Shown one piece after another: positions 3,226 to 22,078 of a stretch of DNA of 35,103 nucleotides. The DNA comes from a virus: positions 1-35,103 of the IMG/VR virus record IMGVR_UViG_3300027833_000125; one strand, given 5' to 3'. The notes under the pieces were generated by a model. The model searched no databases. It was not told the origin of the DNA and saw only the letters and a program-made list of their open reading frames with translations. Positions within the stretch are counted from its first letter, which is position 1; each line of letters begins with the position of its first letter. Position numbers and translations under genes: made by a program.

Positions 3226-3549
3226 ATGAGTATAAATTTTAAAAATACTTGGAGACCATTACCAAGTTGCGTAACTATAAAAGAAAGTATAATAGATGGT
3301 TTAGGCCTATTTGCTGTTGAGGATATACCCATAGACACTGACTTGGGTTTAATGAGATTTATGTATCATGATACATTGATAAGAACAGCGTTAGGATCTT
3401 TTCCTAATCACTGCGAAGATCCTAACTGTGTAAACATAAGCAGTATTAATGAGCATGGAGACGAAGAATATAATTTAGTTACTAGTCAAGATATTAAAAT
3501 TGGAGATGAATTAACGCTTTGTTATCAAATGAAGCAGTATTATAAGTAA
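3226..3549 (+). CDS. SET-domain protein, putative lysine methyltransferase
   Basis: This 107-residue protein is a minimal SET fold. It contains SIIDGLGLFAVEDIP (residues 21-35), matching the first SET motif (S-x-x-x-G-x-GLFA), then FPNHCEDPNCVN (59-70), matching the NHSC-x-PN AdoMet-binding motif, and GDELTLCY (93-100), matching the final GDE-x-T-x-x-Y motif with the active-site tyrosine at 100. The length is close to the stand-alone viral SET proteins known from large viruses. SET enzymes methylate lysines on proteins using AdoMet; the target could be a host protein or a virion protein. It begins two bases after the ATP-grasp-like gene, so the pair is probably co-translated. The motif match is clear; activity is not shown. 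Confidence 0.75.
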   Translation: MSINFKNTWRPLPSCVTIKESIIDGLGLFAVEDIPIDTDLGLMRFMYHDTLIRTALGSFPNHCEDPNCVNISSINEHGDEEYNLVTSQDIKIGDELTLCYQMKQYYK

Positions 3550-4446: not shown

Positions 4447-4454
4447 TATAAATA
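4447..4454 (+). promoter_or_regulatory. T4-type late promoter heading the curli-like gene cluster
   Basis: Exact TATAAATA in the only sizeable gap before the cluster (4423-4459). It ends 5 bases before the ATG at 4460, so by T4 geometry the first transcribed base is the A of that ATG. No other promoter or terminator was seen between here and the end of the cyclase gene, so this site could serve the whole 6.5-kb run. Confidence 0.7.
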
Positions 4455-4459
4455 ACTAT

Positions 4460-4756
4460 ATGGCCGAAATCTTTGAAATAATTGCACAGGTCGGGGCCCC
4501 CATTGCTGGGGCTTTCGCTATGGGTGCTTTTATCTTCCTAATAATACGACAAATTTTAGAAGGGCTAATCGACAAGATTAAGACCCTTACTATATTCTGT
4601 GAATCACTAGAAAACAGAGCTCGTACCATGGCCAACGAAATGATTAAGATTGATATGTTAGTCAGTAGCGCTTTAGAATTAAGACCAGATATAGAAAGAA
4701 TTGCTCGAGCAGAGAACTTTGTTGAAGATGGCAAAGTAGATGTACGGAGAGATTAA
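4460..4756 (+). CDS. Small single-pass membrane protein, first gene of the curli-like cluster (holin candidate)
   Basis: This 98-residue protein has one hydrophobic helix at about residues 12-31 (GAPIAGAFAMGAFIFLII) followed by an amphipathic, charged helical domain ending VRRD. It aligns by eye with the next protein: a Gly-Pro-Ile before the helix, the same spacing to an E/D-rich coiled region, then R-x-x-x-x-x-x-E/D-x-I/L and a valine-rich VSSALE or VNVVLE. The two therefore look like tandem paralogues. The order lysozyme, small membrane proteins, outer-membrane pore makes a holin or inner-membrane partner role thinkable. Similar small proteins occur in cyanomyophages. The stop overlaps the next start (TAATG). 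Confidence 0.75.
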   Translation: MAEIFEIIAQVGAPIAGAFAMGAFIFLIIRQILEGLIDKIKTLTIFCESLENRARTMANEMIKIDMLVSSALELRPDIERIARAENFVEDGKVDVRRD

Positions 4757-5019
4757 TGGAAGAAGCTAATATATTAATAGATGGTATACAAAAATATGGT
4801 TTTCCCATAGTTGCATGTATTGGTTTTGGATATTTTCTCTTCTATATTTGGAAATTCATTAGTGATAGAATAGAACCAGAATTGGATAAAATGCACTTTG
4901 CTTTAATAAGAGTAATTGATCGAACTAGAATGCTCGATCAGGACTTAATTAGATTACAGCAGAAAGTGAATGTGGTGTTAGAGTATAAAGAAAATGAGAA
5001 AATGAAAAATGAAAAATAG
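4756..5019 (+). CDS. Small single-pass membrane protein, YvrJ-like, paralogue of the preceding gene
   Basis: This 87-residue protein begins with IDGIQKYGFPIVACIGFGYF, leading into a hydrophobic helix at about residues 14-32, then a charged helical tail (RVIDRTRMLDQDLIRLQQKVNVVLE, split here as residues 50-75). The YGFP-I-V start is reminiscent of YvrJ-type small membrane proteins, and near relatives are common in cyanomyophages. The predicted topology puts the coiled tail in the cytoplasm. It shares the layout of the preceding protein and overlaps the CsgF start by 11 bases. Holin or secretion-partner functions are both possible; neither is shown. Confidence 0.75.
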   Translation: MEEANILIDGIQKYGFPIVACIGFGYFLFYIWKFISDRIEPELDKMHFALIRVIDRTRMLDQDLIRLQQKVNVVLEYKENEKMKNEK

Positions 5020-5497
5020 AATAACAGGAACCCATTTAGGAATATTAGTAATAGCACTATACTTTATAGCTCAGGGAGTTATGGCAGACTCTATAGTATT
5101 TAAGTTTAAGAGTCCGTCATTTAGCGGCCAGGGAACTTCTGCACATTACTTAACTATTGAGAACCAAGAGAAGTCCAGAAAAGAAAAGATACAAGAAGAC
5201 GTGCAAGCTGCTATAGAGAAAGCAGAAAGAGATGCTAATAATACCACCCAAGCTAAGTTTTTAAGAAACTTGGAGAGTAGAATATATGCACAGATTGCTA
5301 AACAGTTAGTAGATAATATGTTTGGTAACACCGAATCAGCTACATCTGGTTTCTTTGAGATTGAAGGTAACTCCATTACTTATGAAACTATTATTGGTGG
5401 TGGTCCAGATGGAACCGATATCATACGAATAACAGTTCTAAGTGAAGATGGAACTACTACGACACTCGATGTTCCTATCGGTGCAGGTTCGTTCTAA
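5009..5497 (+). CDS. csgF: CsgF-like curli assembly protein
   Basis: This 162-residue protein has a signal peptide (residues 1-26, hydrophobic core GILVIALYFIAQ, cleavage after VMA). The mature protein starts DSIVFKFKSPSFSG, matching the CsgF N-terminus pattern F-x-F-x-x-P-x-F-x-G, the part that in E. coli binds inside the CsgG pore. A helical region follows (45-105: Glu/Lys-rich, then LESRIYAQIAKQLVDNMFG, matching the CsgF 'AIQSQILGGLL' helix), and then a beta-rich C-terminus with TTTLDVPIGAGSF at the end. In bacteria CsgF sits at the outer face of the CsgG channel and couples curlin secretion to nucleation. The gene is directly upstream of csgG, ending on its start (TAATG). Confidence 0.85.
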   Translation: MKNRITGTHLGILVIALYFIAQGVMADSIVFKFKSPSFSGQGTSAHYLTIENQEKSRKEKIQEDVQAAIEKAERDANNTTQAKFLRNLESRIYAQIAKQLVDNMFGNTESATSGFFEIEGNSITYETIIGGGPDGTDIIRITVLSEDGTTTTLDVPIGAGSF

Positions 5498-6390
5498 TGA
5501 GGTTGTGGTGTGCACTATTTCTGTTAACACTGACAGGATGCGCTGGGATACCAAGTATAACAGATTCGTGCAGCACTGCATTCATGGCAGAGTTTGGTGA
5601 ATGTAGAGAAGAGGCAGTAGTTGTTACTTTACCAGCATCAGAGAGACTTGCTAATTTACCTCCGGCTTCAGAACGGCCGGTAGTCGCCGTATATAGTTTT
5701 AAAGATTTAACAGGTCAGAGAAAGAGTAGAGATAACCTTGCAGACTTCTCTACAGCAGTAACCCAAGGTGGTGAAGCATTTGTCATTGATGCCTTAAAGA
5801 CTGCGGGAAAGGGTAAGTGGTTCAGAGTAGTAGAAAGAACTGGATTAGAAAATTTAATTAAAGAAAGACAAATAATTAGATCAGCAAGAGAAGAGTTTGA
5901 AAAGAAAGACGAGGATAAGAAGTTACAACCTTTACTCTTTGCTGGTATTATAGTTGATGGTGGTATTATAGGATATGATTCCAACATTGAAAGTGGAGGA
6001 CGGGGAGCTAGATACTTAGGTATTGGTTCATCTGTTCAGTATAAGAGGGATTCGGTAATCGTGAGTTTAAGGGCAACCTCAACTCTCACGGGTGAGATTT
6101 TGTTGAACGTACAGACTAAAAAATCTATCTTGTCTGTAGGTGGTGGTTATGATGTGTTTAGGTTTGTCGATATGGACACTAAACTGGTAGAAATTGAAGA
6201 TGGTAATAGTTTCAACGAGAGTGTGACTTACGCAACGCGGGCCGCAATCGAAGAAGCGATACTAGAGTTAATATACCAAGGGCACGATAGAGGCTACTGG
6301 GTAATAAAGGATGGCCATCGTCACCCCCATCAACACGATGGAATAAACGAGAAACATCCGATAAAAGGAGAAGAAGATGAACATGAATAA
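5497..6390 (+). CDS. csgG: CsgG-like outer-membrane curli secretion lipoprotein
   Basis: This 297-residue lipoprotein has a short signal peptide with lipobox LTGC (lipidated Cys15). The CsgG core follows: PVVAVYSFKDLTGQ (61-74), FSTAVTQGGEAFVIDAL (84-100), WFRVVERTGLENLIKERQII (108-127), VDGGIIGYDSNIESGGRGAR (153-172) and the beta-hairpins around 173-213, then VFRFVDMDTKL. All blocks match E. coli CsgG, which forms a nonameric pore in the outer membrane. The conserved constriction Phe is present (F84), but the neighbours equivalent to Tyr51 and Asn55 are Asp by my alignment. A His- and Glu-rich tail (from 273, HRHPHQH) is extra. The first residue follows the csgF stop directly and the 3' end overlaps the next gene by 14 bases. 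Confidence 0.93.
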   Translation: MRLWCALFLLTLTGCAGIPSITDSCSTAFMAEFGECREEAVVVTLPASERLANLPPASERPVVAVYSFKDLTGQRKSRDNLADFSTAVTQGGEAFVIDALKTAGKGKWFRVVERTGLENLIKERQIIRSAREEFEKKDEDKKLQPLLFAGIIVDGGIIGYDSNIESGGRGARYLGIGSSVQYKRDSVIVSLRATSTLTGEILLNVQTKKSILSVGGGYDVFRFVDMDTKLVEIEDGNSFNESVTYATRAAIEEAILELIYQGHDRGYWVIKDGHRHPHQHDGINEKHPIKGEEDEHE

Positions 6391-7234
6391 AAGTTACATT
6401 TTTGTGATGTTTGGTCTTATATCAATGTCTAATGCAATTGCAGGAGACGCGAATGATAATGAAATATTTATTGAACAGACTGGTAACAATGTTGAGCTTA
6501 CTATTCAACAAATTGGTGCTGGTAACAAGTATGGCGGTGATAACTTTAGTGGAACTTCTATTGATATGACAATGACTGTTTCAGATTCATACTTGGATAT
6601 ATTACTTGATGGAGATTATAATAAAATGTTTGGTACTATTGCCACTACTGGTTCTACTATCAACAACTTTATTACTGGCGATTATAACTTGTGGAACCAA
6701 AAGATAGGTGTTGCCAATACGGCTGACACAATCACAATCGATTCTGCAATAACCGGTAGTACAAACAGCGTAGTATTTAGAGCAGGTAATGCTGACGATT
6801 CATATAATGTGGACACGCCGTTATGGAATAACACTGCAGCAGAATCTTTTTGGACTGTTTCAGGTAGTGTTTGGTCAAGAACTGCCACAGGCCAAACTGC
6901 ATATTGGGGTTCATGGACACCAACTGCTGGATCGGCTGATAGTTTAGATATGGATTTGGATGTAAATGGTTCAGATAACACCTTGAATGTATTTGTTAAC
7001 TCTACGAATGCTACATTTGATTGGGACATAACTGGTTCAGATAACTGGATTCAAACTACAATGGAAGATGGTGCTGATAACAGTCAAACTGTAGCAGTAA
7101 CCGGAGATTATAATTTCATCTTTGTAGGCCAGAATACTGGGTCAACAGTCGGAGTAACAAACAATGCGATACTTGATGCAACATTTACTACAACACATTC
7201 GGATATCAATATTATACAGTCTGACGCTAACTAG
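6377..7234 (+). CDS. Curlin-like secreted repeat protein 1
   Basis: This 285-residue protein has a signal peptide (1-22, cleavage after AIA). The mature start, NEIFIEQTGNNVELTIQQIG (28-47), carries two copies of the curlin strand pattern (hydrophobic-x-hydrophobic-x-Q-x-G-x-x-N). Repeated turns follow: DGDYN, TGDYN (three GDYN copies in total), NGSDN, TGSDN and ADNSQT. They are separated by alternating beta-strand residues, consistent with a beta-solenoid amyloid like CsgA or CsgB. It is longer than E. coli CsgA (151 aa) and the repeats are degenerate, with a Trp/Ser-rich insert near 140-185. A GGAGAAG ribosome-binding site precedes the ATG. Role as an exported fibre subunit is inferred from the adjoining CsgG and CsgF. 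Confidence 0.75.
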   Translation: MNMNKSYIFVMFGLISMSNAIAGDANDNEIFIEQTGNNVELTIQQIGAGNKYGGDNFSGTSIDMTMTVSDSYLDILLDGDYNKMFGTIATTGSTINNFITGDYNLWNQKIGVANTADTITIDSAITGSTNSVVFRAGNADDSYNVDTPLWNNTAAESFWTVSGSVWSRTATGQTAYWGSWTPTAGSADSLDMDLDVNGSDNTLNVFVNSTNATFDWDITGSDNWIQTTMEDGADNSQTVAVTGDYNFIFVGQNTGSTVGVTNNAILDATFTTTHSDINIIQSDAN

Positions 7235-8327
7235 TATATTTCTTATGGGTTCGGCCTCGGCCGAATCTATAGGAGGTATTACTGAACAGAAAGGTGTTGC
7301 TTCACTTGTCAGAAATGGGGGTGAAGAGATTACAGTATCGGGCACTTCGGTACCCGGTATTGAATTAAAGGATACTGCCGTTACTGGTAATGGTAGAATG
7401 CTGATTGAGTTCTTGGATGAAGAAGAACTGTCTATAATAGAACACACTCGGATCTATATAGATGAAGCATATTATGATCCAGACCCATCTAAATCTAAGA
7501 TGGCAATTCGTATGGTACAGGGAACTGCTAGGTTCACTTCAGGCCGTGGAAAAAGAATTAATAAATCCAATGTACAATTATCAACACCCACAGCTGAGAT
7601 AGCTATACTAGGTACGGACTTTACTACAACCATTGACGAGATAGGGCAATCGCTCATTATATTATTGCCGGATGAAAAGACTGGATTGTCTTCAGGTAAG
7701 ATTATAATAAGCAATGCTGGTGGTACTGTAACCCTAGAAGAAGCATATCAAGCGTCTACTATATCATCATACGATAAGAGTCCAAGTGCACCCGTAAAAT
7801 TGTCCGGTATAGATCCTAGTATGATTAGTAATATCTTTATCGTTTCGGAACCCCAAGAAATTAAAGAAGTTAAACAACAAGAGGGTCTTCTATCAGAGAA
7901 TGATAATGTTAATATACTAGACGTTGACTTCCTTGAATTTAATGAATTAGAGAAAGACTACTTAGAGTATGATGAACTAGAATTTAGTGAACTTGACATT
8001 GATTACTTAGCTGTAGATTTTCTGCAAGACGTATTAGATGTTCTTCAAGCATTAGATAAGGGTACTTCCTTAGATAGGAGTGCTTTAAGTTCAGGCATAG
8101 ACCTTCAAGGTACTATAGTTGGGTTTGATTCAGATACGCAATACAATAGTATAGTAGATAAAGGTGCAGATACCATTAAATTCTTTAGGGATGTTGATGG
8201 AGTTATAAGTATAAGTATGTTACTTTCACAATCGGCCACGATTAGAACAGTTTCAGATCAGAAAGAATCTGAAATAATATTAGGAGACGGACAGGGTATT
8301 ATAATTAATATCACGCAGGTACAATAA
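7164..8327 (+). CDS. Secreted FecR-domain protein with acidic C-terminal segment
   Basis: This 387-residue protein has an N-terminal signal sequence (about 12-33, cleavage after SASA). A FecR domain follows (about 38-170): IGGITEQKGVASLVR, TAVTGNGRMLIEFLDEEEL, a YDPDP loop, VQGTARFTSG, then LSTPTAEIAILGTDFTT, matching the FecR TP-x-A-x-I-x-x-x-GT-x-F signature. Residues 246-292 form a very acidic stretch with repeating FLE-F, YLEY-DE and YLAVDFL units. FecR domains act in the periplasm in signalling and often accompany CHASE2 cyclases in bacteria. The start overlaps curlin gene 1 by 71 bases; a GGAG at 7151-7154, nine bases upstream of ATG 7164, supports it. The stop overlaps the next start (TAATG). 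Confidence 0.85.
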   Translation: MRYLMQHLLQHIRISILYSLTLTSIFLMGSASAESIGGITEQKGVASLVRNGGEEITVSGTSVPGIELKDTAVTGNGRMLIEFLDEEELSIIEHTRIYIDEAYYDPDPSKSKMAIRMVQGTARFTSGRGKRINKSNVQLSTPTAEIAILGTDFTTTIDEIGQSLIILLPDEKTGLSSGKIIISNAGGTVTLEEAYQASTISSYDKSPSAPVKLSGIDPSMISNIFIVSEPQEIKEVKQQEGLLSENDNVNILDVDFLEFNELEKDYLEYDELEFSELDIDYLAVDFLQDVLDVLQALDKGTSLDRSALSSGIDLQGTIVGFDSDTQYNSIVDKGADTIKFFRDVDGVISISMLLSQSATIRTVSDQKESEIILGDGQGIIINITQVQ

Positions 8328-9100
8328 TGAATAAGTTTTTAAATTACACAGCACTATCCATTTGGGTACTATATCTGGTATTTGCATGTCAGCCCGCAAA
8401 GGCCGATAATGAAATCTATGTTACACAAACAGGTGATAACCTCAGATTAGAATACGAGCAACTAGGAGATAACAATAAGATAGATACAGTATTATCTGGT
8501 TATCAACTGGATACTGCAATACTTCAAGAAGGAAATAGAAACCAGGTATTAAATAAGTCCCAAGGAATTACTGGCGACTATAATCAAGTAGTAGTAGAAC
8601 AATGGAACAATACTAATAGTACTGATATTAATAAAATATGGATTGATATTGATGGTGATAGTAATGCGGTAGATGTAGGCCAAGGATGTAAATTTATATA
8701 TTCAAACAGCACATCTTGCGATAGAGATACTCACGAAGATGCCGGCCACGAAATGGAAATAAATATTACTGGAGATTATAATTGGGTACGTGGCGGCCAG
8801 AAATCAGGTACTGCAGATCCGGATCACACTTTAGTCATGGATATTAATAGTGATAATAATAGTGTATGGTTTACACAAGCAGGTTCTGGTGATAAAAATT
8901 TAGATTTAACTATTAACAACGATGGCAATTCGGTAAGTATACATCAACACTATGGCGCACATACTGCGACAGTTACCCTAGATGGAACATCACCGACTGA
9001 CTTAAACTTAATTCAAGCCGGCGGCCCAAGTCAGACATACAATCTTATGCAGAACTGTCTAACCATAGGCGGTTGCTCTGTCTCGGTAGTGCAGCAGTGA
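8327..9100 (+). CDS. Curlin-like secreted repeat protein 2
   Basis: This 257-residue protein has a signal peptide (1-26, cleavage after AKA). The mature start, NEIYVTQTGDNLRLEYEQLG (28-47), is nearly superimposable on that of curlin-like protein 1. Further repeats include DTAILQEGNRNQ, ITGDYNQVVVEQ, IDGDSNAVDVGQ, ITGDYNWVRGGQ, NSVWFTQAGSGD and NSVSIHQHYG, all of the curlin hydrophobic-x-hydrophobic-x-Q type spaced by G-D-x-N turns. Two Cys pairs are present, one in the middle (GQGCKF...TSCDRD) and one near the C-terminus (QNC...GGC). With two subunits of similar start, one could be the nucleator (CsgB role) and the other the main fibre (CsgA role); which is which cannot be told. It follows the FecR gene with a TAATG overlap. 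Confidence 0.78.
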   Translation: MNKFLNYTALSIWVLYLVFACQPAKADNEIYVTQTGDNLRLEYEQLGDNNKIDTVLSGYQLDTAILQEGNRNQVLNKSQGITGDYNQVVVEQWNNTNSTDINKIWIDIDGDSNAVDVGQGCKFIYSNSTSCDRDTHEDAGHEMEINITGDYNWVRGGQKSGTADPDHTLVMDINSDNNSVWFTQAGSGDKNLDLTINNDGNSVSIHQHYGAHTATVTLDGTSPTDLNLIQAGGPSQTYNLMQNCLTIGGCSVSVVQQ

Positions 9101-9112
9101 GTGTTAGAAACT

Positions 9113-9132
9113 ACGGATATTATATATTCCGT
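9113..9132 (+). other. Short inverted repeat between curlin-like gene 2 and the cyclase
   Basis: ACGGA and TCCGT arms flank a 10-base AT-only loop in the 78-base gap; a third ACGGA copy follows at about 9137. The stem is too short and lacks a T-run, so it is not a convincing terminator. It could be an operator or an RNA processing site. Confidence 0.25.
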
Positions 9133-9178
9133 AAATACGGATACAGAAACTCCAGAATAGGAACTAGAGTAGACATAT

Positions 9179-10993
9179 ATGTATAACTGGAAAGTAGTAT
9201 TACTGACCATTATCTTACTTGTTACGGTAAGAGTGCAAGACCCCAAATTAGTAGAACAGTTTCGTTTAAACTATTTTGATTCGTTACAGTCGTATCAAGA
9301 ACCGATCAAGGCAGATAATATAGTCATAGTAGATATAGATGAATCTGCTTTAAATAGGTATGGCCAGTTTCCCTTTAGTAGAGACCTATATGCAAACTGG
9401 TTAAATTCTAGCCCAGAAAATAATGCATATGTATTTAATATGGGATTCACGGAGAAAGATAGGTTCGGTAAAGACTCTGATCTTGCTGCAGCTATGGGAA
9501 CTAGAGATGTAATACTATCATCCTTTGTGAGTAATAAATCCCAGGGTGATAAGCCGCCTAGAGGCTTTGGTAAGCTTGGAAAGGGTGACCCGTCAGATTG
9601 GTTGTATTCATATAAGGGTATGCGTACTTCGGTCGTGGCTCAATATGCAGAAGGCGTAGGAGCTGTTACAGTTGCACCTTCGGTAGATGGTATAGTCAGA
9701 GAGTCACCCTTAGCTATCCTAGCTAATCAACACCTTTGGCCGGCCATAGCATTAGAGATATTACGAGTGTGGGAGTTTCAGCCTAACCTAGCAATTAAGA
9801 TTAAAGACGCTGGAGTAGAGTGGGTGAGAATGGGTACTTTACCTCCGATGTATACTACCCCGAATTCTAATGTTCAAATAGCATACTGGAACGAATACGA
9901 GCGTATATCATTTGGAGACCCACTACCCGATGAAAAGATAATCATACTAGGATTGAGTGCAGGTGGATTAGTCAACCCAGTACCGACTCCGACTGGTGCT
10001 ATGTTACCACACGACATTCAAGCACATCTAATATCTACTGTAGTAAATGGTATCCAAATTCAAAGACCGTGGTATGCCGATCAGCTTGAACTTCTACTGA
10101 TTATCGGACTATCATTAATGATATTACTTATTGTATATCAAACTCCAACTTATATGTCGGCTTGTATATCACTATGTACTCTGTTAGGTACAATGTGGGC
10201 CGGCTATCATGTTTGGATGACAGAACTTTTACTGATAGATGTTTTGTTCCCTACAGTGGCTGCCTTTATCGTATTCACTCATGCTACATTCAATAGGTTC
10301 TATGTCACATATAAGTTAAAAGAACTGATTAAAGGTCAATTCGGTACTTACCTATCTCCAGATATGGTCTATATGTTACAGAAAGATCCGTCACTATTAG
10401 CACTAGGAGGCGAAAGAAAAGAGATGTCCTTCTTGTTTATGGACATTTGTGGGTTCACCCCCATATCAGAGTACTACAAGAACAAAGACGACCCCGAAGG
10501 ATTAGTGGTATTGGTCAATGAATTCCTAGATGCCATGACCAAAATCATACTAGCCAATGGTGGTACTATAGACAAATATATGGGCGACTGTATTATGGCG
10601 TTCTGGAATGCTCCAATAGCATGTGAGAACCATGCAGAGATGGCAGTTAAATCATCAATAGAGATAGAGGCAAAGACTAATGAACTTAAAGCAGTATACA
10701 AAGAGAGAGGACTTCCAGATATTAATGTTGGTACTGGTGTCAATACCGGTGATTGCATTGTTGGGAATATGGGCAGTGAGTCGAGATTTGATTACTCTGT
10801 TATCGGAGACGCAGTCAACCTCGCAGCAAGATTGGAGGCTACCGCTGCTAGGGGTGATTACCTAGAGTACAAGACAATCATATCATCTTTCACTAGAGAC
10901 CAACTTCCAGAGAGCTATATCTGTGAGGAGATTGGTAATATCAAGGTGAAAGGCAAAGACGAACTTATAACCATATATTCTCCTAAGTTATAA
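9179..10993 (+). CDS. CHASE2-domain class III adenylate/guanylate cyclase, membrane receptor
   Basis: This 604-residue membrane protein has a helix near 5-18, then a periplasmic CHASE2 domain (about 25-300; IVIVDIDESALNRYGQFPFSRD at 48-69 is the CHASE2 signature, written here in part), three membrane helices (about 303-320, 325-345 and 350-368), then a class III cyclase domain (about 412-600). The catalytic set is complete: metal Asp422 (FMDICGF) and Asp470 (DKYMGD), purine-recognising Lys466, and Asn547 and Arg551 in GDAVNLAARLE. The second purine-contact position is Ser540 rather than Asp, close to the Thr of class IIIb enzymes such as cyanobacterial CyaC, so an adenylate cyclase of IIIb type is most likely. 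CHASE2 senses an external or periplasmic signal. It ends the curli-like cluster. Confidence 0.92.
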   Translation: MYNWKVVLLTIILLVTVRVQDPKLVEQFRLNYFDSLQSYQEPIKADNIVIVDIDESALNRYGQFPFSRDLYANWLNSSPENNAYVFNMGFTEKDRFGKDSDLAAAMGTRDVILSSFVSNKSQGDKPPRGFGKLGKGDPSDWLYSYKGMRTSVVAQYAEGVGAVTVAPSVDGIVRESPLAILANQHLWPAIALEILRVWEFQPNLAIKIKDAGVEWVRMGTLPPMYTTPNSNVQIAYWNEYERISFGDPLPDEKIIILGLSAGGLVNPVPTPTGAMLPHDIQAHLISTVVNGIQIQRPWYADQLELLLIIGLSLMILLIVYQTPTYMSACISLCTLLGTMWAGYHVWMTELLLIDVLFPTVAAFIVFTHATFNRFYVTYKLKELIKGQFGTYLSPDMVYMLQKDPSLLALGGERKEMSFLFMDICGFTPISEYYKNKDDPEGLVVLVNEFLDAMTKIILANGGTIDKYMGDCIMAFWNAPIACENHAEMAVKSSIEIEAKTNELKAVYKERGLPDINVGTGVNTGDCIVGNMGSESRFDYSVIGDAVNLAARLEATAARGDYLEYKTIISSFTRDQLPESYICEEIGNIKVKGKDELITIYSPKL

Positions 10994-11032: not shown

Positions 11033-11061
11033 TTGACAAAGGGCGTATATGGTAGTATAAT
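11033..11061 (+). promoter_or_regulatory. Early sigma70-type promoter 1
   Basis: TTGACA (11033-11038), a 17-base spacer, then TATAAT (11056-11061) extended by ATAC. Both boxes are perfect consensus. It drives the 83-residue gene at 11094 and is one of six near-identical promoters between 11.0 and 16.7 kb. Confidence 0.9.
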
Positions 11062-22070: not shown

Positions 22071-22078
22071 TATTTATA
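22071..22078 (-). promoter_or_regulatory. T4-type late promoter (- strand)
   Basis: TATAAATA on the - strand lies between gp4 and the 197-residue gene and ends five bases before the ATG at 22065. The predicted first base is the A of the ATG. It sits against the gp4 stop codon. Confidence 0.65.

Follow-up and report, generated by a model that had tools for sequence, protein, structure and literature searches.

The 35,103-base virus record IMGVR_UViG_3300027833_000125 (hereafter the window) carries eight co-directional plus-strand genes at positions 4460–10993, which probably form a complete phage type VIII (curli) secretion operon that is expressed late, makes fibres on the infected cell and includes a FecR-CHASE2 sensor. 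The genes are, in order, TM1, TM2, CsgF, CsgG, curlin-like 1, FecR, curlin-like 2 and a CHASE2 cyclase. The window belongs to a T4-like phage, as judged from its gp59 helicase loader, T4 baseplate protein, tail tube and baseplate wedge. The original prediction had read this segment as a phage module for curli-like secretion and for signalling, controlled by a late promoter, and sequence comparison supported that reading. Open reading frames (ORFs), Pfam and relatives all agreed with the claim that CsgF, CsgG, two curlin-like proteins, FecR and the cyclase lie in one run (4447–10993). Its list of contents stood as far as it went but overlooked TM1 and TM2 (4460–5019) at the start of the unit, as well as a lysozyme upstream.

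Gene content and linkage

On profile evidence the identities of CsgF, CsgG, FecR and the cyclase were beyond doubt, with all Pfam matches above the curated cut-off. CsgF (5009–5497; PF10614, E 7.8e-13) had a predicted signal peptide, and CsgG (5497–6390; PF03783, E 2.7e-49), the outer-membrane pore lipoprotein, an LTGC lipobox. The FecR-domain protein (7164–8327; PF04773, E 5.3e-9; phrog_37870, 4.7e-58) was predicted to be periplasmic, and the last gene (9179–10993) combined a CHASE2 sensor (PF05226, E 6.8e-30) with a cyclase domain (PF00211, Guanylate_cyc, E 6.4e-18). The tight gene overlap claimed earlier was real, and included a FecR start 71 nt inside the curlin-like 1 gene. All eight genes were under purifying selection, with nonsynonymous divergence (dN) of 0.02–0.18 against synonymous divergence (dS) of mostly 0.2–2 and in some cases saturated.

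The profile built from relatives of the window CsgG matched the solved CsgG structure at 1e-66, and an E. coli CsgG query found the phage CsgG with an E-value of 6.8e-49. A sequence search of the PDB with CsgF gave no credible match, and E. coli CsgF was aligned directly instead. In the 11 aligned CsgF sequences, F26, P29, F31 and G33 (E. coli numbering) were invariant or nearly so. Cryo-EM places residues 20–31 of CsgF along the lumen of CsgG (PMC7304575), and curli assembly requires the N-terminal phenylalanines of CsgF (PMC10133297). The conserved residues fall within or adjoin this segment, and the CsgG-binding loop is kept.

Linkage was examined in loci from a scan seeded with CsgG (80 viral loci), to which scans seeded with TM1 and TM2 added more; counts for the CsgG-seeded set refer to phage loci with enough flanking sequence for each gene. 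The expectation that the genes would stay together in relatives held almost without exception: CsgF was present in 95/95 testable loci, FecR in 68/68 and the cyclase in 33/33, and TM1 and TM2 occurred in 85 of 86. A first curlin stood beside CsgG in 79/82 testable loci and two curlins in 52/53. The sole locus of the 86 lacking TM1 and TM2 was L096, a phage-like contig of 6,931 bases from a Pirellulales bin with CsgF, CsgG and one curlin. Starting from TM1 or TM2, with enough sequence behind TM2, CsgF and CsgG followed closely in 60 of 68 distinct loci; in six more they lay beyond the distance allowed (five loci where the gap was larger, plus L260), and L231 and L284 had the operon turned round, with TM1/TM2 separate from it. 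The near-invariant linkage emerged from three independent seeds, CsgG, TM1 and TM2. A radical-SAM-like gene was inserted between TM2 and CsgF in one locus (L170:6532–7377), and a similar gap was seen in L169, L181, L183 and L186. The module was also found on terminase-bearing contigs of jumbo-phage size, L171 (216,820 bases), L173 (339,794 bases) and L224 (250,519 bases), of which the first two had identical CsgG. One record titled as a Salmonella phage (L003, OR851715.1) was rejected as host csgFG DNA, since its CsgG scored 584.6 bits to that of E. coli.

The assignment of the two remaining proteins, curlin-like 1 (6377–7234) and curlin-like 2 (8327–9100), as curlin-type had good but not complete support, drawn largely from relatives. 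The Curlin_rpt profile was matched by 17 of 58 relatives of the second-position protein at E ≤ 0.001 (best 1.8e-13) and, at the looser threshold of E ≤ 0.05, by 32 of 60 first-position relatives (best 3e-7). Relatives in the same operon exceeded the Pfam cut-off, namely HTVC008M gp018 (5.2e-8, five stretches) and Melnitz gp101 (8.6e-6) and gp103 (1.9e-4). E. coli CsgB weakly matched both window proteins (E 0.0023 for curlin-like 2, 0.0085 for curlin-like 1). Repeats of the G-x-x-N type exceeded their numbers in shuffled sequences (10 compared with 1.7, and 6 compared with 1.1). AlphaFold2 models consisted of stacked strand-turn-strand repeats, with mean predicted local distance difference test (pLDDT) scores of 84 for curlin-like 2 and 78.5 for curlin-like 1. 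Two C-terminal cysteines (QNCxTxGGCSVSVTQ) were invariant in the curlin-like 2 alignment and may form a disulphide. HTVC008M gp018 (L001:10638–11963) joined curlin repeats to a PA14 domain, a possible sugar-binding head on a fibre.

Late-type promoter, TM1 and TM2

The late promoter proposed at the head of the module corresponds to the motif TATAAATA at 4447–4454 (plus strand), 5 nt ahead of the TM1 start codon. By count the motif was weak, with 11 occurrences in the window against 5.5 expected, but its placement recurred in relatives. Of 132 distinct relatives, 85 had TAAATA no more than 30 nt ahead of TM1, 70 of them at exactly 5 nt, compared with at most 5% ahead of the other module genes (10% for the cyclase) and a background of 1.4%. 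Away from TM1, 19 of 233 TATAAATA sites in the viral loci stood exactly 5 nt before an ATG. In the window 4 of the 11 did so, including those at 4447, 22071–22078 (minus strand) and 27332; this class would yield nearly leaderless late transcripts. The placement indicates a T4-type late-promoter element upstream of the module. At a spacing of 5 nt, a T4-type transcription start would presumably coincide with the TM1 ATG.

TM1 (4460–4756, 98 amino acids; phrog_18771, 1.8e-23) and its relative TM2 (4756–5019, 87 amino acids; phrog_18771, 2.4e-25) each had one hydrophobic stretch near the N-terminus by hydropathy, and the rest of each protein was long, polar and apparently helical. Neither HisKA nor HATPase matched any of 20 members in Pfam at E ≤ 10, and no other family was convincing; no holin family matched either. 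The published order of the module, HK(1-2)-CsgF-CsgG-CsgA/B-FecR-CsgA/B-AC, with "HK, sometimes two" (PMC9599517), suggests by position that TM1 and TM2 are the genes published as histidine kinases, a label that seems mistaken. Among 50,697 phage records, credible matches to TM1/TM2 were confined to HTVC008M (two records) and four Melnitz records, with one further TM2 match at E 0.4. Viral loci seeded with TM1/TM2 nearly all carried the curli module, so the pair was not seen as a separate lysis cassette.

Related systems and cyclic AMP signalling

Curli clusters in pelagimyophages, to which the original prediction referred, have indeed been reported (PMC7029224), and the module has been published for marine phages in three accounts (PMC7029224, PMC9004378, PMC9599517). 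The gene set and order of the window were those of HTVC008M, within the module described for pelagimyophages and HTVC023P-type podophages (PMC7029224, PMC9599517). Compared with that module, the "histidine kinase" position is here occupied by single-segment membrane proteins of 87–98 amino acids that lack a kinase domain, and in the window a lysozyme precedes the module and a consensus sigma-70 promoter marks its end. The Methylophilales phage Melnitz had the identical eight genes in identical order (PMC9004378). Its authors inferred that it has no csgA/csgB and that its CsgF might have lost the ability to bind CsgG (PMC9004378), whereas gp101 and gp103 carried Curlin_rpt above the cut-off, in agreement with the deposited Melnitz annotation. 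With E. coli csgBAC-csgDEFG the phage module shares CsgG, CsgF with its CsgG-binding loop, and curlin-type repeats. It differs in adding FecR, the CHASE2 cyclase, TM1 and TM2, in forming one operon with a late-type promoter, and in lacking CsgC, CsgD and CsgE, for which, as first reported, no phage ORF matched at E ≤ 0.01.

The original prediction regarded FecR and the CHASE2 cyclase as an addition to the picture; both had in fact been reported in phages (PMC9599517), and both also occur in bacteria. A scan of genomes with the phage CsgG profile recovered phage contigs binned in metagenome-assembled genomes (MAGs), ordinary alphaproteobacterial curli loci, and three operons (L091, L092 and L093, in Hyphomonas/Caulobacteraceae MAGs) with the order CsgF-CsgG-curlin(s)-FecR-cyclase. 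L093 lay on a 705-kb Hyphomonas contig beside a TonB-dependent receptor and metabolic genes, the neighbours of L091 likewise looked chromosomal, and guanine plus cytosine content at the bacterial operons was 52–57% against 33–42% in the binned phage contigs checked. Published pelagiphage accounts state that FecR and the cyclase are not in bacterial operons (PMC7029224, PMC9599517); they do occur there, though in rare MAGs: such an operon was carried by 1 of the 299 genomes scanned from the order, by 2 of 249 from the family and by 1 of 385 from the class, all of them already-known ones. Gene order and CsgG clade were common to these operons and the phage module, and the differences were that the bacterial ones lacked TM1/TM2 and their cyclases kept a C-terminal tail lost in the window. 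TM1 and TM2 are what the phages consistently carry and the bacterial operons do not, and a search for TM1 in 289 genomes from the class to which the L093 genome belongs, run with no positive control, found none.

In the CsgG tree, the phages and L091–L093 formed one clade apart from other bacteria (support 100/99). The bacterial operons fell inside the phage rows, and a constraint keeping the phages together was not rejected (approximately unbiased test, p_AU 0.178), so that the tree cannot decide the direction of transfer. Of 13 long cyclase matches from the same order that showed no curli gene in the short stretch examined, 4 had FecR next to a CHASE2 cyclase; the pair therefore resembles an independent sensor cassette.

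The window cyclase contained FMDICGFT, DKYMGD and GDAVNLAAR, with the metal-binding Asp, the ATP-type Lys/Asp and the Asn/Arg residues expected of a class III adenylate cyclase, as which it can be classed from these motifs. All three motifs were found in 51 of 65 distinct relatives. The Melnitz cyclase (L002:12613–14664) lacked the usual transition-state Asn and had a C-terminal tail of bacterial type; it may be inactive or carry a replaced domain. Receptors for cyclic adenosine monophosphate (cAMP) were surveyed in 117 genomes of the SAR11 order, to which the Pelagibacter MAG containing L095 belongs. PF00027, the cyclic-nucleotide-binding domain of CRP, was found in 7 of these; the one case inspected, an 863-amino-acid protein, reads as an acyltransferase/lipase-like enzyme and not as a CRP-type regulator. 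The cyclase family PF00211 was found in one genome only, on the phage contig L095 itself. Control genomes gave matches in 10/14 for PF00027 and 5/14 for PF00211. PF00027 was not found in ten module-bearing virus records, including the complete HTVC008M and Melnitz, nor in the L095 MAG. Genomes of the SAR11 order thus seem to lack a CRP-type cAMP receptor and a class III cyclase of their own. The cAMP-to-CsgD route derived from Gammaproteobacteria would therefore lack here both CsgD and a receptor of the CRP type. Other readers of cAMP are possible, and the window's own host may lie beyond the SAR11 survey.

As far as the literature searched shows, the bacterial FecR-cyclase curli operons without TM1/TM2, the corrected reading of TM1/TM2, the fixed placement of the late promoter, the apparent lack of a cAMP reader and the occurrence of the module on terminase contigs of 217–340 kb are new. 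Comparison with the bacterial operons singles out TM1/TM2 as the extra part of the phage version. A phage operon predicted to make cAMP, in a known host group apparently lacking a CRP-type receptor, poses a concrete puzzle for the cultured pairs HTVC008M/HTCC1062 and Melnitz/H5P1.

Proposed function and alternatives

The reason for an exporter of amyloid fibres in phages of abundant ocean bacteria has been a question since 2020, and the functions listed in the original prediction are hypotheses already published. In the secretion operon that we favour, CsgG would form the outer-membrane pore, which CsgF plugs and caps; the curlin-like proteins would leave by Sec and then through CsgG-CsgF, and would assemble on the surface of the infected cell into amyloid-type fibres. 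Periplasmic FecR and the CHASE2 cyclase would act as a sensor pair that converts a periplasmic state, perhaps the load of fibres or subunits, into a cAMP signal. TM1 and TM2 would be phage-specific inner-membrane partners, possibly adapting the system to phage timing or the host envelope. The most likely benefit would be to stick infected cells or debris to neighbouring hosts in dilute water, with a shield against superinfection as the main alternative. This explanation is supported by the retained CsgF loop and cyclase residues, the linkage, the position of the late-type promoter, purifying selection, and the bacterial operons without TM1/TM2.

Several observations weigh against it. Profile searches put CsgG, CsgF, FecR and CHASE2 above the cut-off but not the curlin repeat, which both window proteins missed when searched alone. 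Foldseek comparison of the two curlin models with the PDB gave nothing below E 0.001, and the models, although they display repeats, are no proof of a curli fold. No phage ORF matched the periplasmic gate CsgE (E ≤ 0.01); since it was not found in L091–L093 either, its absence is not peculiar to phages. The loci were collected by similarity and are not a random sample, so that the linkage counts are not frequencies in nature. Finally, Melnitz-infected cultures showed no clumping under the conditions used (PMC9004378), which is evidence against aggregation in that culture.

The lack of clumping would suit the lysis device proposed for Melnitz, in which CsgG, with or without CsgF, serves as a controlled opening that sets off lysis or fixes its timing, and TM1/TM2 are holin-like proteins beside a lysozyme. 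The late-type promoter and the small size of these membrane proteins fit that proposal, as does the phage lysozyme (PF00959; 3569–4033) that shortly precedes the module and whose catalytic E-D-T triad is intact. Among 131 distinct loci, 32 had a lysozyme no more than 1.6 kb from TM1. In the other 99, however, no lysozyme lay near the module, and TM1/TM2 matched no holin family. Curlins nearly always accompany the pore, and FecR and the cyclase are retained with it as well, which argues against a role in lysis alone; CsgF still has its CsgG-binding loop, and two Melnitz proteins exceed the curlin-repeat cut-off. The idea that the CsgG pore by itself opens the outer membrane, also raised in the original prediction, is accordingly disfavoured, and we regard the lysis device as rather unlikely. 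Still less probable is an uptake or permeability pore (put forward in PMC7029224 and PMC9599517), in which CsgG, open for want of the CsgE gate, would admit larger nutrients or allow small molecules, perhaps including cAMP, to escape. It would leave the conserved CsgF, the two curlins and the sensor pair unexplained, and the bacterial operons share the missing gate.

There is a similarly slight chance that the curlins are exported without becoming cell-surface fibres, for example by coating debris or virions after their release, or by serving as a sugar adhesin. The PA14 domain of HTVC008M gp018 and a late-type expression signal, at the time of virion production, speak for such a role, but PA14 was present in only 1 of 58 relatives scanned, and no virion data are reported in PMC9599517 or PMC7029224. 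An unlikely elaboration, to which we nevertheless give some weight, is a phage-adapted trans-envelope device in which TM1/TM2 couple the inner membrane to CsgG-CsgF while cAMP acts via another receptor, leaves through the pore as a signal, or marks fibre completion for the timing of lysis.

No Rfam family reached its gathering score and no tRNA was detected within the window. Upstream of the operon, a 107-amino-acid protein (3226–3549) matched the SET domain (PF00856, 9.4e-9), here in a phage. Directly after the operon, at 11033–11061, stood a perfect sigma-70 consensus promoter (TTGACA-17-TATAAT).

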